46,971 nucleotides of DNA, from IMG/VR virus record IMGVR_UViG_3300037245_000684, positions 1-46,971 of that record. The stretch is one strand, 5' to 3'. Below are positions 22,512 to 39,868 of the stretch, in pieces. This DNA is from a virus. Position 1 is the stretch's first letter; every line of letters starts with the position of its first letter. The notes below the pieces were generated by a model. The model had not been told where the DNA came from. It saw only the letters and a program-made list of their open reading frames with translations, and did not search any database. A program made the position numbers and the translations under genes.

Positions 22512-23006
22512 TTATTCTGGGAAATTAAGTCTTGCAAATTCGCCAAAATACTTTATAGCTGCTGTATCGTAAGCCTTGGCTGCCTTGATTAAGCAAAAAA
22601 AAGAACCAAGACTGATATATTTGCCGTTTAACCAAATACTTGACCGCCACATATTAGATGCTTTACGAAAACACACCCCTTTGTAACCACTCTTATTTGT
22701 AGACTTAATACCTCTATTCCATGAGTTCTGTTGTGTAGTAACTAACCTCAAGTTAGATCGCTGGTTATTAAGACCGTTGCCATCTATATGGTCAACTTCC
22801 ATTCCATCAGGGGCGTTAAGTATAACTCTGTGCATCGGAACTCTTTTTCCATCAATACGGGCAGTGACATATATGGTCTTACTGTTCCTGCTGTAGTTTG
22901 ATGCAGACCACCTGCATTTACAATCCATAAGGGATTTAAAATCAGAATCATCTACCATGGTGATTGCGTCTGGGTGTTTTTGCGTGCTTACGTCAATTTG
23001 TTTCAT
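22512..23006 (-). CDS. HNH homing endonuclease with AP2 DNA-binding domain (164 aa)
   Basis: Residues ~55-85 contain the HNH core 'VPMHRVILN...EVDHIDGNGLNNQRSNLRL', with the DH pair and two downstream Asn. Residues ~105-160 form an AP2-like domain ('SGYKGVCFRKASNMWRSSIW', 'KAAKAYDTAAIKYFGEFARLNF'). This is a standard phage free-standing homing endonuclease. Two relatives lie on the plus strand (27513-28001 and 39386-39868). It has its own promoter-like sequence and a leader with interleaved inverted repeats. Confidence 0.92.
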   Translation of the reverse strand: MKQIDVSTQKHPDAITMVDDSDFKSLMDCKCRWSASNYSRNSKTIYVTARIDGKRVPMHRVILNAPDGMEVDHIDGNGLNNQRSNLRLVTTQQNSWNRGIKSTNKSGYKGVCFRKASNMWRSSIWLNGKYISLGSFFCLIKAAKAYDTAAIKYFGEFARLNFPE

Positions 23007-23008
23007 GG

Positions 23009-23090
23009 GTCAAGTCCATAGAAAAACCCGCTCACAAGGGACTTGACTACCTCGTTTGCGGGTTATCTTAAAATTTATATATAGTGTCAA
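23009..23090 (-). promoter_or_regulatory. Promoter and pseudoknot-order leader of the minus HNH gene
   Basis: On the minus strand a perfect TTGACA (23090-23085) is followed after 17 bp by GATAAC (23067-23062). Downstream, AACCCGC (23064-23058) pairs with GCGGGTT (23031-23025), and GTCAAGTCC (23047-23039) pairs with GGACTTGAC (23017-23009). The order is a-b-a'-b', i.e. a pseudoknot or mutually exclusive hairpins. The last arm lies 3 nt before the ATG and covers any ribosome site. If transcription starts ~6 nt after GATAAC the first arm would be outside the RNA, so only the 9-bp b hairpin would then act. Confidence 0.5.
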
Positions 23091-23201
23091 GTCTATCATA
23101 GTTCGTTCATTTTAGCATGAAGCCTATTAGGAATCAAGTAAAATCTTTCTATTAAGTGAAAATAGTTATCTGTCCCTACCGTTAGCTCTTTGGAGGATGG
23201 T

Positions 23202-23601: not shown

Positions 23602-23996
23602 ATTGTTCTTCTCTGTAAAGCCAAAGTATACAGTACGGATCGAAGTAAGTCAAATAAAAAATAAAATAAAAGTTTGCCTGAATATCTCACAGGCGGGAAT
23701 ATCACGGCTTGAGCTATAATCTTGCCACCGGATCAATCACTGCATATCAATACTATACCACATTGCAGCGATAAGTCAAGCAACTTACAAAGATAATTTG
23801 TTGGTTCGTTCAAAAGGTGAATGAGTGGGTTTATTTATCGGAATAACACTATCCTGCTAACTTTACCATGTTTTAACACTATCCTGCTGACATTCACCAA
23901 TTTCGGGTTTTTCTGTTGGCGATTCTTATTTTATGCCCGATACTATATTCAGAAGCAACGAACGTAAATTTTATTATTCTTTTAGGAACTGGGATT
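23602..23996. promoter_or_regulatory. Divergent control region with an 18-bp direct repeat
   Basis: This ~395-bp AT-rich gap separates the minus and plus early units. TAACACTATCCTGCTAAC (23844-23861) recurs at 23874-23891 with one change, centres 30 bp (about three helical turns) apart, as expected of an operator or iteron. A TATAAT occurs near 23716 but without a good -35 box. I see no credible gene here. Confidence 0.55.
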
Positions 23997-27372: not shown

Positions 27373-27491
27373 TTGACTTTCACCCGAAATAGGTTATTAT
27401 TATGTTATGCGACGTAGTACCACAAAATCAAAAGAAGTCATCCAGGGGCAATCCGGGCTCGCGCCCTTCCTGCGTCGCAACCCTGGGTGGC
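27373..27491 (+). promoter_or_regulatory. Promoter and pseudoknot-order leader of plus HNH gene 1
   Basis: TTGACT (27373-27378) and TATTAT (27395-27400) form a promoter with 16-bp spacing. In the leader, TGCGACG (27408-27414) pairs with CGTCGCA (27473-27479), and GTCATCCAGGG (27437-27447) pairs with CCCTGGGTGGC (27481-27491, two G-U pairs). GGGC-TCGC-GCCC (27455-27466) is a hairpin between them. The order a-b-c-c'-a'-b' is a pseudoknot. Confidence 0.6.
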
Positions 27492-27512
27492 TCTTATTTT
27501 GGGAGTCATACC

Positions 27513-28001
27513 ATGAAAAAAATACCACTCACTAAAGGACTGTCAGCGATAGTAGATGATGCCGACTACGAAGAACTAAGCCGCCATAAATGGTACGCTA
27601 TGAAAAACACCTACGGCGGCTTTCTGGCTAGAAGATCTACTTTTATAGACGGAAAACATGGCAAAGTATGGATGCACCGTTTTTTGTTGGGCCTTAAAAA
27701 AGGAGATAATATGGTTGGGGATCACATCAATCACAATACGCTTGATAATAGAAGATTTAATCTCCGCAAATGCACCCAAGGACAAAACCTTTGCAATATG
27801 AGTCCGAACAAAAACACAAGCTCTCAATACAAGGGCGTTAGCTTTAATAAACAATGCCGTAAATGGGACGCCAGAATCAGTAAGAATGGCGTGCAGCATT
27901 GTTTGCAGTTATTTGAAACAGAGGAACTTGCGGCACTTGCTTACAACGAAAAAGCAAAAGAGTTACATGGCGAATTCGCGCATTTAAATAAAATCAATTA
28001 G
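27513..28001 (+). CDS. HNH homing endonuclease with AP2 domain (162 aa)
   Basis: The ATG at 27513 (MKKIPLTKGLSAIVDDADYE) has a GGGAG site; an earlier in-frame ATG at 27402 would be inside the structured leader. The start 'IPLTKGLSAIVDDADYEELSRHKWYA' is shared with the gene at 39386. The HNH core is 'GDHINHNTLDNRRFNLRKC', with Asn where the family more often has Asp-Gly. An AP2-like domain follows ('SQYKGVSFNKQCRKWDARIS...LAALAYNEKAKELHGEFAHLN'). It splits the coiled-coil gene from the exonuclease gene. Confidence 0.92.
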   Translation: MKKIPLTKGLSAIVDDADYEELSRHKWYAMKNTYGGFLARRSTFIDGKHGKVWMHRFLLGLKKGDNMVGDHINHNTLDNRRFNLRKCTQGQNLCNMSPNKNTSSQYKGVSFNKQCRKWDARISKNGVQHCLQLFETEELAALAYNEKAKELHGEFAHLNKIN

Positions 28002-33726: not shown

Positions 33727-34389
33727 ATGGCAAAGAAAAAAGCAGTAGAAACAAAAATCGTAGAGATTCACGCATTGAATCGCAAACAGTTAACCGTTAA
33801 TATCGTTGGCGATACACCTTTATTCGTCCACCGGCTGCCTGCAAAGCTCAAGATCGAGTTTGAGGCAAGGAATATGGGTAAGGCAATGCCAAAGAACAAG
33901 GTCAGAGATAAGCAGGTTGAGTTCTGCGAATCCCTGTACTGGCTAGACAAGGCTGGCAATGAGATCGTTGCAAAGAAAGACGTTTCAAAGCATAAGTATT
34001 GGGGGTTCCCTGCGTCCGGCTTCAAGAAAGCAGCGATCAGTTCTTGCCGTGCATTCAAAAGTATTAAGATGACAGAAATGCGAGGAGCTTTCCATGTAAA
34101 CGGTCGATATGTAATGATCGAGGGATCGCCGAGAATCCAGCAAGAGCAGGGATGTGACGGTATCTGGGTTCGCGAAGGCGGCAAAGGACCTGGAACCGGA
34201 ACGCCAAATATCCGGTATCGTGCGGAATATCCTGAATGGTCTGCAAAGCTCAATATTACTTACAATGGTAATATGATTACAGCAGAGCAGATATTCAACC
34301 TCTTTAATACTGCCGGGTTCAGTGTTGGAGTTGGCGAGGATCGTCCAGATAAGAGCGGTGGGACCGGTGGAATGTTCCATGTAGAATAA
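33727..34389 (+). CDS. RAMP/Cas7-like phage protein downstream of the array (220 aa), hypothesised
   Basis: Visible features are 'VNIVGDTPLFVHRL' (24-37), 'YWGFPASGFKKAAISSCRAF' (91-110), 'MRGAFHVNGRYVMIEG' (118-133), 'NIRYRAEYPEWSAKLNITYN' (161-180) and 'FNTAGFSVGVGEDRPDKSGG' (193-212). The order TPL..H, then G.P.s.fK.A..s, then a C-terminal Gly-rich loop resembles RAMP proteins (Cas7, Csm3, Cmr), where these are an RRM strand, the 'PGSSLKGALRS' helix and the RNA-contacting G-loop. It belongs to a common uncharacterised phage family. The resemblance is by eye and needs structure prediction. The gene starts 32 bp after the array, with AAAGGG as ribosome site, and is followed by a terminator. 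Confidence 0.55.
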   Translation: MAKKKAVETKIVEIHALNRKQLTVNIVGDTPLFVHRLPAKLKIEFEARNMGKAMPKNKVRDKQVEFCESLYWLDKAGNEIVAKKDVSKHKYWGFPASGFKKAAISSCRAFKSIKMTEMRGAFHVNGRYVMIEGSPRIQQEQGCDGIWVREGGKGPGTGTPNIRYRAEYPEWSAKLNITYNGNMITAEQIFNLFNTAGFSVGVGEDRPDKSGGTGGMFHVE

Positions 34390-34394
34390 GTTCT

Positions 34395-34440
34395 AACCCC
34401 GTTAAGCTCCTGCGGATCGTTTCCGTGGGGGCATCTTTTA
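34395..34440 (+). terminator. Terminator after the RAMP-like gene
   Basis: CCCC (34397-34400) pairs with GGGG (34427-34430) around an inner CGGA-TCGTT-TCCG hairpin, followed by CATCTTTTA. It would end the operon that includes the array. The stem is interrupted, so efficiency is uncertain. Confidence 0.5.
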
Positions 34441-34472
34441 TCTCAGGTCTTGAAATAAAATAAATTTAGTGC

Positions 34473-34501
34473 TTGACTTATATGCAGTTAGAGGTTATAG
34501 T
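34473..34501 (+). promoter_or_regulatory. Sigma70 promoter for the ~100-nt structured RNA
   Basis: TTGACT (34473-34478) and TATAGT (34496-34501) are separated by exactly 17 bp. The same CTTGACTT context begins the leaders of both plus-strand HNH genes (27373, 39265). Transcription would start near 34508. Confidence 0.75.
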
Positions 34502-34507
34502 TTAAAT

Positions 34508-34607
34508 ATTAGATCGCCCTAGAAGACGATGCCAGCTATAATAATACACATTCAAAAGATTCACAGCGAACTGTCTTCTAGGGCCTTCGCACGTGAATCT
34601 TTTTTTA
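34508..34607 (+). ncRNA. Putative ~100-nt pseudoknot RNA with its own terminator
   Basis: Two perfect helices are interleaved: GCCCTAGAAGAC (34516-34527) with GTCTTCTAGGGC (34573-34584), 12 bp; and AAAAGATTCAC (34554-34564) with GTGAATCTTTT (34593-34603), 11 bp, followed by more Ts (to 34606). The order 1-2-1'-2' gives an H-type pseudoknot or two exclusive folds, the second being an intrinsic terminator. With the promoter just upstream this has all parts of a small RNA gene or a transcription attenuator for the gene at 34619. No known family was recognised. Confidence 0.7.
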
Positions 34608-34618
34608 TGGAGTAAATT

Positions 34619-35131
34619 ATGAACAATTCAAACCTTATTAAATGTTTCGTTTGCTTTCTCGACGGAAAGCCATGCGGCAATAATCAGAGATTATCAAGGA
34701 CTAAAAAGAAACTACTCAAGAAGGCTATATCGCTATTAAGGTGCTTGCGTTCTAATTTTGAAATGTGGGAATACCCTTCGTCTTGCACTCCTTTTTCTGA
34801 CTATAAATATTTCCTACCGTTTATAAAGAATATGAACTTTTACCATAAATACAAGGATGTTTACCTCAAAGTAATGCTCTACGCAAGCGATCACCTTGAG
34901 GAATTAGCATTCATTAAGCAAGAAAGTGGGTACTTATTGGCCTTTCCCTGGGAAGAAGACAATGGCCTTTATACGGTAGAGGGTTCCATGCCCTTGCAGT
35001 TCGGGTGCAACCCCGACGATGGAACATGGGCATACGGGGAAACTCGTTCGATTTGTGAACACTTCGGAGTCAATATTCTCACGACAAAAAATGAACGTGA
35101 CTTCATAAAACAGATCGCAACTAAGGACTAA
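34619..35131 (+). CDS. Protein of unknown function behind the structured RNA (170 aa)
   Basis: MNNSNLIKCFVCFLDGKPCG, with three Cys, is followed by a basic helix ('LSRTKKKLLKKAISLLRCLR'), an aromatic-rich middle and a C-terminal part 'MPLQFGCNPDDGTWAYGETRSICEHFG'. A TATGGAG site overlapping the end of the terminator-like helix precedes the ATG, so folding of the RNA could control both transcription and translation. No family recognised. Confidence 0.6.
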   Translation: MNNSNLIKCFVCFLDGKPCGNNQRLSRTKKKLLKKAISLLRCLRSNFEMWEYPSSCTPFSDYKYFLPFIKNMNFYHKYKDVYLKVMLYASDHLEELAFIKQESGYLLAFPWEEDNGLYTVEGSMPLQFGCNPDDGTWAYGETRSICEHFGVNILTTKNERDFIKQIATKD

Positions 35132-35134
35132 CAC

Positions 35135-35191
35135 ATGCAAGGCTGGATAAAACTACATAGAAAGCTGATAGAATGCCACAAGGACGAATAA
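35135..35191 (+). pseudogene. Remnant start of a replisome-organiser-type gene (18 codons)
   Basis: ATG 35135, with AAGGA upstream, encodes MQGWIKLHRKLIECHKDE and stops at 35191. 'M.GWIKLHRKll' is the typical first line of phage replisome-organiser/initiator proteins, but it ends and the real initiator gene starts in another frame at 35173. It looks like a recombination joint between two initiator types, or a short translated leader coupling the initiator. Confidence 0.45.
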
Positions 35192-35895
35192 TACTAAAGT
35201 CAATATGCCAAAGCAAGAAATTGTCGCAGCTTAAAAGCGATGGCGCAAGACTTTTGTACACTTGGTTGCTCCCAAACTTGGACATTCAAGGGTGTTTCTC
35301 TGGCGACGAATATGTAATCATGGGCCAGATATTCACAAGGCTCAAAAAAGCACCGGACGAAGTGACTGGATTCCTCCAAGACTTGCACGATTGCGGTTTA
35401 ATTATCTGGTATGAAGCAGATGACGATAAATTTCTACATGTTCCTGATTTCGTTACCAAACAACCACGTCTAAACCCTATTAAAGAAGCTAAATCAACGA
35501 TTCCGATGCCAACTCCCGACCTACTCCCGACTAACTCCCGACCTACTCCAGACTTACTCCCCCCAAAGCAAAGCGAAGCAAAGGAAAGCAAAGCAAAGGA
35601 AAGTAAAGTTAAAGCGAAGGACGTTTCGTTTGAATCTAAAGATTCTTGTTCTTCGGTCGCCTCGCTCGAACTCAACTTCTACGATGGAGCGTGTGAGATA
35701 TTCAAGATCAAAAAGCCCGCTGACCATACAACACTGCGAAACGTAGCAGAGTTTTTAGGAAAGAAATACGAGTTTGATGATAAGATTTTCAAGAAAGTAC
35801 AGAAAGTTGCAATAGAAAGCGTTGGCGGTAATGTTCCAATAGCTCTTTTCATGAGCAGGATGAAATCAGAATTTGATTATCGGAAACCAGAATAA
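35173..35895 (+). CDS. Winged-helix replication initiator-like protein (240 aa)
   Basis: Residues 1-105 ('KSICQSKKLSQLKSDGARLLYTWLLPNLDIQGCFSGD...VTGFLQDLHDCGLIIWYEADDDKFLHVPDFVTKQPRLN') follow the common phage initiator winged-helix pattern in which 'sk.l..Ls..arlLyt.L...aD..Gr' is followed by a small beta wing. A Pro/Lys/Ser/Glu-rich linker (~110-150) precedes a C-terminal helical domain, the usual place for helicase-loader binding. It probably opens the origin and recruits host helicase; no phage helicase or polymerase is encoded. Confidence 0.75.
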   Translation: MPQGRIILKSICQSKKLSQLKSDGARLLYTWLLPNLDIQGCFSGDEYVIMGQIFTRLKKAPDEVTGFLQDLHDCGLIIWYEADDDKFLHVPDFVTKQPRLNPIKEAKSTIPMPTPDLLPTNSRPTPDLLPPKQSEAKESKAKESKVKAKDVSFESKDSCSSVASLELNFYDGACEIFKIKKPADHTTLRNVAEFLGKKYEFDDKIFKKVQKVAIESVGGNVPIALFMSRMKSEFDYRKPE

Positions 35896-39091: not shown

Positions 39092-39268
39092 ATGGGCATG
39101 GACAAAGCAATAGAGAGCGGCAAGGAAAAGCGAAAGAAGTATTACGGTGCTAAGTCATCCGATTCTACATGCAATAATCACGGTTCTTGTCGGGCAAGCA
39201 GAGAGAACCGGCAGCACAAAAACCGTAAACGTAAATTAACCGCAGATGATCAATTGAAAAACACTTGA
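39092..39268 (+). CDS. Small conserved phage protein 'AIESGKEKRKKYYGAK' (58 aa)
   Basis: ATG 39092 after AAGGAGCGG encodes MGMDKAIESGKEKRKKYYGA, then SFDSTCNNHGSCR-type Cys-His motif and a basic tail. The pattern 'aIesGKEhRkpY.gsk..d.sCrnHGsC..CR.NR.hk' is shared by many short phage proteins of unknown function. Its stop (TGA) overlaps the -35 box of the following promoter. Confidence 0.65.
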   Translation: MGMDKAIESGKEKRKKYYGAKSSDSTCNNHGSCRASRENRQHKNRKRKLTADDQLKNT

Positions 39269-39381
39269 CTTTCAGGAAATATATGTTATAGTTTGGATAG
39301 CTAGGGTATGCAACCCGAAAAGGCGGACACCTGAACCGCCCTGCTATTCAACTTATTTCAGGATAACTATTACAGGAATAG
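39265..39381 (+). promoter_or_regulatory. Promoter and structured leader of plus HNH gene 2
   Basis: TTGACT (39265-39270) and TATAGT (39287-39292) are 16 bp apart. Downstream are a closing stem ATAGC/GCTAT (39297-39301/39343-39347), hairpins GGGT-ATGCA-ACCC (39304-39316) and GGCGG/CCGCC (39322-39326/39336-39340). The loop of the latter has CCTGAA (39330-39335) complementary to TTCAGG (39357-39362), a possible pseudoknot. CTATT/AATAG (39367-39371/39377-39381) holds the ribosome site AGG in its loop. Confidence 0.5.
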
Positions 39382-39385
39382 TATT

Positions 39386-39868
39386 ATGAAACAAATCAAG
39401 TTAACACAAGGGAAGTTCGCATTAGTCGATGACGAAGACTATAAAGAACTGACGAAACACAAATGGTACGCTCATAGGAATAAAAGTACGTTTTATCCTA
39501 GAAGGAGCCTGCCCTATGTGGACGGAATACAACAGAAACAGTATCTTCATGTATTTCTTCTTGGTAGTTCGCCCAATAAAGAGATAGACCATAGAGATGG
39601 AAATGGACTTAACAACCAAAGGAACAACCTCCGTATGTGCACCCAATCTCAAAACTCAATGAATAGGCACGGCAGTCACGGTAAATGTAAATTCAAAGGT
39701 GTTTCATGGTATGAAGGCCCCAAAAGATGGAGATCGCAAATTGCAGTAGGAGGAAAACGTGAATATTTAGGGATCTTCTTTTGTGCAGTTAAAGCCGCAA
39801 AAGCATATGACAAAGCAGCTAAAGAATATTTTGGCGAGTTCGCAAACCTCAATTTTGAAGGAGATTAA
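39386..39868 (+). CDS. HNH homing endonuclease with AP2 domain (160 aa)
   Basis: Starts MKQIKLTQGKFALVDDEDYK; the HNH core is 'EIDHRDGNGLNNQRNNLRMC' (~70-90), and the AP2-like domain 'CKFKGVSWYEGPKRWRSQIA...KAAKAYDKAAKEYFGEFANLNF' fills the rest. The C-terminal half is closely similar to the minus-strand copy at 22512-23006, and the N-terminus to the copy at 27513. This pattern indicates spread of one family in this genome. It is bounded by its own promoter/leader and by a lipoprotein-like gene. Confidence 0.92.
   Translation: MKQIKLTQGKFALVDDEDYKELTKHKWYAHRNKSTFYPRRSLPYVDGIQQKQYLHVFLLGSSPNKEIDHRDGNGLNNQRNNLRMCTQSQNSMNRHGSHGKCKFKGVSWYEGPKRWRSQIAVGGKREYLGIFFCAVKAAKAYDKAAKEYFGEFANLNFEGD

Follow-up and report, generated by a model that had tools for sequence, protein, structure and literature searches.

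In classic leader-peptide attenuators of the trp and erm type, overlapping segments of the leader RNA pair as 1:2, 2:3 and 3:4. In the repYZ system of the IncI-alpha plasmid ColIb-P9, which includes the leader peptide RepY, a pseudoknot switch activates translation of repZ, and the pseudoknot is controlled by an antisense RNA. Premature termination of the pT181 and P4 types is controlled by small RNAs acting in trans. Work on plasmid pseudoknot control, including Asano and Mizobuchi 1998, and on pT181 is cited in PMC10724649. According to PMC9031893, leaderless short (polycysteine) ORFs of mycobacteria control the next gene, and attenuation depends on the cysteine codons; PMC4633059 also deals with leaderless-ORF attenuators of mycobacteria. 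In the titles and abstract openings of the literature on attenuation in phage leaders that contain pseudoknots or leaderless ORFs, mostly from outside subscription journals, the arrangement described below for a phage locus, element A, was not found.

Organization of element A

The stretch of DNA analysed (the window) comprises the 46,971 bases of a virus record and carries tailed-phage genes. Element A lies in it between the genes 33727-34389 and 34619-35131, the former of which has its own terminator-like hairpin behind it (34406-34432). The parts of the locus are:

34473..34501, + strand: sigma70-type promoter (TTGACT 34473-34478, 17-nt spacer, TATAGT 34496-34501)
34516..34528, + strand: arm 1 of helix 1 (12 Watson-Crick pairs and one G-U)
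34529..34615, + strand: leader ORF of 28 codons, MPAIIIHIQKIHSELSSRAFARESFFME, with its stop 3 nt before the start at 34619
34554..34564, + strand: arm 2, the 5' strand of the terminator (perfect inverted repeat)
34566..34570, + strand: inner extension of the terminator stem, GCGAA, pairing with TTCGC 34586-34590
34572..34584, + strand: arm 1', the partner of arm 1
34586..34590, + strand: inner extension of the terminator stem, TTCGC, pairing with GCGAA 34566-34570
34593..34606, + strand: arm 2' (34593-34603) and T run (34600-34606), of intrinsic-terminator form
34619..35131, + strand: downstream gene, an orphan of 170 aa without a relative in the collections searched

Helix 1 consists of GCCCTAGAAGAC (34516-34527) and GTCTTCTAGGGC (34573-34584), helix 2 of AAAAGATTCAC (34554-34564) and GTGAATCTTTT (34593-34603), with all 12 and all 11 bp, respectively, matched (100%). 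The original prediction had placed here a TTGACT-17-TATAGT promoter, followed by two perfect inverted repeats of these lengths in the order 1-2-1'-2', the second ending in a run of T, with the next ATG 12 nt further on. All of these features were found as described; the T run has seven T. The two-helix description was right as far as it went, but it missed the inner GCGAA/TTCGC extension, which makes the terminator stem longer, as well as the overlapping leader ORF and the sister elements described below.

With loops of up to 60 nt allowed, no perfect inverted repeats in the whole window are longer than these two, and no other pair of repeats of at least 9 bp is interleaved. None of 200 dinucleotide shuffles of the window contained two interleaved repeats whose arms both reached 11 bp. 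The RNA up to 34592 folds with -24.5 kcal/mol (z -5.1) and the terminator hairpin alone with -20.0 kcal/mol (z -4.7), values reached in 0 of 200 shuffles in either case. Simple counts near the element are at the level of chance (13 promoter matches vs 12.4 expected, 6 terminator matches vs 5.8); the exact form TTGACT-N14-20-TATAGT is present three times in the window vs 0.05 expected.

The leader ORF begins right after arm 1, overlaps the terminator and ends next to the gene start. Arm 1 is near the expected 5' end of an RNA made from the element's own promoter, at the place that a ribosome bound to the leader start would occupy. The leader ATG is 27 nt after the -10 box and is preceded only by a weak SD-like AGAAG; an ATG near the expected +1, which would put an AUG at the 5' end of the RNA, was not found. 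An SD-like GGAG lies between the T run and the ATG at 34619, outside both helices. In its sequence form the terminator has a stem of 11 + 5 bp followed by the T run, and it stands before the gene. The inner part of this stem adjoins arm 1', and the apical loop is essentially arm 1' itself; therefore the complete terminator would hardly form at the same time as helix 1. The outer 11 bp alone could coexist with helix 1, with a gap of 8 nt between 1' and 2', and an H-type pseudoknot of helix 1 and outer helix 2, with loops of 25, 7 and 8 nt, is possible. When the growing transcript was folded stepwise (pseudoknot-free), helix 1 was complete and the most favourable structure at 34584, ahead of the synthesis of 2', and persisted to 34620.

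Behind the 170-aa gene, at 35136-35192, a short ORF (MQGWIKLHRKLIECHKDE) extends past 35173, where the replication gene begins. It appears to resemble the N-terminal part of a different phage replication protein, of which it is perhaps a remnant.

Homologue searches

For the 170-aa protein no relative was detected by tblastn or by a related-locus search in viral and genome contigs, and there was no PADLOC or Pfam match; its single-sequence structure model (pLDDT 48.6) was too poor for use. A type III toxin-antitoxin system was considered and rejected, taking into account the same lack of PADLOC and Pfam matches and that there are no direct repeats at 34400-34700. Blastn with 34390-34720 gave two weak matches in phages (12% of the query, E 0.3) and none in plasmids. 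The leader peptide had no convincing homologue in phages (E 8-10 only) or in plasmids. Comparison of the RNA and the protein with 25, then 10 related virus records returned a single 14-nt match. A pattern scan for the terminator stem hit 15 contigs, and in the repeat listing none of the 15 had a counterpart of helix 1; three of these contigs were inspected and resemble coding DNA. The terminase of the window has relatives with 60-79% identity only among metagenomic viral contigs, and at most 39.5% identity among the named phages listed. Since these searches revealed no homologue of either the RNA or the protein, recurrence of the same plan in unrelated sequences was taken as a substitute for covariation evidence.

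Element A had no match at the gathering score to any Rfam 15 family, and the idea of a known riboswitch or intron was dropped on this ground. With the covariance model of the int-alpA RNA (RF02996) two chance-level matches were obtained (E 5.3 and 8.6), neither of them int-alpA. In the relatives' loci L052, L053 and L065 there were likewise no Rfam 15 matches.

Sister elements in the window and in relatives

The plan of element A recurs in seven further elements, two before HNH genes in the window and five in relatives, which have in common a promoter, crossing helices and an adjoining gene:

27373..27492, + strand: element B, TTGACT-16-TATTAT, before the HNH gene at 27513
23025..23137, - strand: element C, TTGATT-17-TAAAAT, before the HNH-AP2 gene 23006..22512
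relative G002: element D, directly before a replication initiator homologue
relative G002: elements F and G, before genes of 112 aa (F) and 103 aa (G)
relative G008: element H, before a 127-aa gene
relative G411 (from records added later): element I, before a 67-68-aa gene
39265..39363, + strand: int-alpA case, related but not a member; TTGACT-16-TATAGT (39265-39292) and Rfam int-alpA RNA (39294-39363), before the HNH gene at 39386

The arms of element B are TGCGACGTAG/CTGCGTCGCA (27408-27417/27470-27479) and AGTCATCCAGGG/CCCTGGGTGGCT (27436-27447/27481-27492), those of element C GACTTGAC/GTCAAGTC (23086-23093/23040-23047) and AACCCGC/GCGGGTT (23058-23064/23025-23031). Element D was the second 1-2-1'-2' leader to be met; its sequence is different, and the G002 replication gene behind it is homologous (63% identical) to the window gene at 35173. 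HNH_3 and AP2 are Pfam matches, both below the curated cut-offs in the case of the element B gene; the proteins downstream of F, G and H have no Pfam match.

Some observations were made on the window sequences around these elements. Three genes encode HNH-AP2 type endonucleases (22512-23006, - strand; 27513-28001 and 39386-39868, + strand), each with its own promoter-like site and structured leader, all of different sequence. At 23008-23093 (- strand), GACTTGAC of arm 1 in element C is found again, as GGACTTGACC, immediately upstream of the HNH start, so that arm 1' could alternatively pair across the initiation region. Element B (27399-27497) has a sub-threshold match to the ftsZ-DE RNA (RF02985; 21.9 vs 72.2 bits, E 0.026). 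At 23625-23779 (- strand) two TTGACTT promoters are arranged in tandem (23779-23752 and 23653-23625), separated by a T-rich stretch that resembles a terminator; in the RNA of about 100 nt predicted from the first of these (23779-23752), no interleaved helices were found.

The topology alone is weakly enriched: at p<=0.01 it was found in 9/183 upstream regions of close relatives, 3/91 of distant relatives and 5/201 controls, and on the opposite strand in 3/183, 0/91 and 7/201, respectively. At p<=0.05 there were 27 sense-strand matches. Five of these, all from the close set, have a sigma70-like promoter just before arm 1, and all five also have a leader ORF that begins at arm 1 and extends almost to the gene; among the other 22, none has such a promoter and eight have an ORF. 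A permissive scan of the whole window was uninformative (156 matches vs 137-169 in six shuffles).

A promoter-anchored detector, which like its thresholds was shaped after elements A-D were known, was run over whole sequences, and in the close set (388 kb, 27 loci) it returned five elements with scores of at least -42 in strength, each having a gene start no more than 45 nt away; none was returned in 80 shuffles. At -29, with a gene and a leader ORF, six matches were obtained vs a shuffle mean of 0.06. Among the matches listed, the best in controls (325 kb) scored -32.0 and the best in distant relatives (165 kb) -26.5. Among the members of the close set are G024, with a terminase identity of only 42%, as well as G003 and G004, which entered via the replication gene; several of its records are short fragments of 4-8 kb. 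The relatives' records G017-G019, G021-G023 and the end of G016 were left out.

Relatives added later (53 kb close, 507 kb distant) contained one further complete element, element I, which scored -56.5 after the scoring had been altered once (overlap trimming) upon noticing it at the low score of -24.3; these relatives are therefore a supportive, not a blind, test. The unaltered detector had already given element I, among two matches with a gene and a leader ORF. In 30 shuffles of the close sets (441 kb) there was no match at -38 or better. Near 2034 of the distant L135 (- strand), a 25-bp stem crossed by an 8-bp helix precedes a 635-aa ORF; this match (-50.7, no leader ORF) fits neither group.

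Common features of the eight elements

The eight leaders have no pairwise similarity (best E 0.2) and, in the comparison made, no common stretch longer than 9 nt; their leader peptides have no evident common motif or codon run. The -35 box is TTGACT in A, B, F, G and H, TTGATT in C, TTTACA in D and, as scored, TTGAAA in I. Arm 1 begins 3-17 nt after the -10 box in all eight. A leader ORF spans to near the gene start in seven, with its stop within -19..+31 nt of the start; that of element G stops inside the loop.

An ATG is present 6-10 nt after the -10 box in 7/8 elements (all but A) vs 114/1138 promoter-like sites, the true 5' ends being predicted only. The probability of such an outcome is ~7e-7 at a background of 10% and of the order of 4e-4 at the promoter-matched rate of 22-25%. 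At TTGAC[TA] sites, an ATG 7-10 nt after the -10 box was counted in 18/82 cases in the close set (elements included) and in 4/38 in the controls. Judged by sequence, leaderless mRNAs may be common in this phage group or its host. Promoter-like sites with an ATG 7-10 nt after the -10 box, opening ORFs of 51-705 codons, were also seen in L052, L063, L064, L070 and L073.

The following energies (in kcal/mol, all computed without pseudoknots) were obtained for the helix-1 and the terminator state, respectively: A, -26.8/-22.2; B, -24.7/-31.4; C, -12.3/-22.9; D, -21.2/-21.7; F, -19.0/-24.1; G, -24.9/-29.3; H, -18.4/-22.2; I, -31.3/-35.6. The two states are within 7 kcal/mol of each other in seven of the eight elements, the difference being widest (10.6 kcal/mol) in C. 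At equilibrium the terminator is equal or better in 7/8, while helix 1 is able to arise earlier; the exception is element A, in which helix 1 is more stable. With arm 1 made unavailable, the minimum-energy fold was the terminator in all seven elements tested (A-D, F-H). The inner terminator stems adjoin 1' in A, C and D. The T tracts after 2' are terminator-like in A, C, D, H and I and weak in B, F and G, where termination is therefore doubtful.

Proposed mechanism and alternative explanations

We infer, with a probability of about one half, that element A is transcribed as a unit of its own and that its 5' leader acts as a ribosome-gated transcription attenuator. Helix 1 would close first during transcription, because 1' is transcribed before 2', and by obstructing the inner part of the terminator it would let RNA polymerase read into the gene at 34619. 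A ribosome on the leader start would cover arm 1 and prevent helix 1, the full terminator would then fold, and an RNA of about 100 nt would be released. A ribosome following close behind the polymerase, on the other hand, would overrun arm 2, prevent termination and become coupled to the gene. The choice would be set by leader translation, not by a ligand or a sequence-specific protein, which would fit the absence of common sequence between the elements, and the direction in which leader translation pushes the gene would depend on timing. Among the eight elements, A is an outlier: it has no ATG near +1, and its helix 1 is more stable than its terminator. The original prediction had offered a pseudoknotted small RNA or an attenuator and did not consider a leader ORF. 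Its second option is favoured by the inner stem adjoining 1', the energies of the two states, which are within 7 kcal/mol in 7/8 elements, and the position of the elements directly before genes.

The main rival to the attenuator is a translational switch of the ColIb-P9 kind, in which translation of the leader ORF opens or permits a 1-2-1'-2' pseudoknot upstream of the SD of the gene and thereby stimulates or blocks its translation. The position of the leader stops close to the gene start in 7/8 elements, the replication initiator homologue behind element D, and the gap of 8-10 nt between 1' and 2' in A, C, D, F and G all speak for it. In B, H and I, however, this gap is 0-1 nt, too little for the two complete helices to be present together; in element A the pseudoknot of the original prediction is conceivable with outer helix 2. 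Terminator-like T tracts in five elements and, in element A, the location of the SD-like GGAG outside the helices are also against a translational switch, which we consider rather unlikely. A stable small RNA of about 100 nt, sealed by helix 1 at its 5' end and by the terminator at its 3' end and acting in trans or alone, with the gene transcribed by read-through only, would agree with the element's own promoter, compact fold and T-run terminator. Such an RNA would need neither the recurring tie to gene starts nor leader ORFs, and it has no homologue in the collections searched. Its longest matches to other phage mRNAs (the only targets compared) are 11-12 nt, equal to those of shuffles, for which reason an antisense RNA to phage mRNAs was rejected; we regard the small RNA as unlikely.

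Arm 1 begins so close behind the -10 box in 8/8 elements that helix 1 might guard the 5' end of the mRNA from decay, helix 2 being a leaky terminator. This explanation leaves the crossing order and the inner stems adjoining 1' in A, C and D unaccounted for, and we think it improbable. Least probable of all, by our estimate, is a chance meeting of an ordinary terminator with an unrelated inverted repeat: the topology by itself is fairly common in real upstream regions, as seen in the controls at p<=0.01, but shuffles yield nothing as strong, and eight elements have nearly the same full set of features.

A broader extension of the attenuator reading is put forward tentatively, at odds somewhat short of even. 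Phages of this group may repeatedly build the same leader plan from unrelated sequence: a promoter, a near-leaderless ORF, 1-2-1'-2' helices, a terminator and a gene start, with helix 1 and a ribosome at the first few codons being mutually exclusive. The elements would then constitute an attenuator class recognisable by topology only, with the int-alpA RNA as a conserved cousin. If this is true, a device for gene control can be preserved in its shape only, with none of its sequence retained, and RNA searches based on families, whether by sequence or by covariance, would miss such devices. Unannotated phage genes, homing-type endonucleases and a replication gene would have in common a translation-dependent expression switch. 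The eight elements are short and open to direct testing.

Comparison with known systems

The int-alpA RNA also precedes similar genes in G003 and G012 (called HNH by sequence likeness). In three phages of the group it was seen directly before an HNH-like gene. Its sequences (window 39294-39363, L031, L032 and L144-L159) were examined for pairing of the P3 loop with a downstream site, and such pairing over 6-7 bp is possible in 10 of the 12 sequences that could be parsed from a total of 19, a count made without shuffle control. The pairings differ in sequence (e.g. CCTGAA/TTCAGG, TCTCGA/TCGAGA, CCCGCA/TGCGGG), and the P3 loop and 3' flank of the int-alpA RNA appear to be joined in a covarying pseudoknot. 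The consensus line of cmscan gives these positions as unpaired. With this pairing the int-alpA RNA would also be a 1-2-1'-2' RNA, which we note as a lead and not as a claim of membership. Element A and the int-alpA RNA have the same promoter type in the window phage and, counting the 3' pseudoknot, the same topology; in contrast to element A, which fails the int-alpA model, the int-alpA RNA has a conserved sequence and two extra hairpins.

With repYZ of ColIb-P9 element A has in common a leader ORF and would share a long-range pseudoknot and translational coupling to the next gene; unlike repYZ, its predicted structure includes a T-tract terminator, and no antisense RNA was identified. The gene downstream of element A is the 170-aa orphan, not a replication gene, and only element D directly precedes a rep homologue. 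A regulated terminator within the 5' leader would be common to element A and the pT181 and P4 types, whereas an RNA acting in trans was not identified here. The plan resembles the leaderless-ORF attenuators of mycobacteria in that a short ORF would control the next gene, but it lacks the cysteine codon run, and element A is not leaderless. Like the trp and erm attenuators, element A combines a short ORF, helices that may obstruct each other and a predicted intrinsic terminator before the gene; its pairs, however, are disjoint and interleaved, 1:3 and 2:4, and there is no diagnostic codon run. Leader-peptide attenuators, leaderless-ORF attenuators and plasmid pseudoknot control thus each have a part of the plan.
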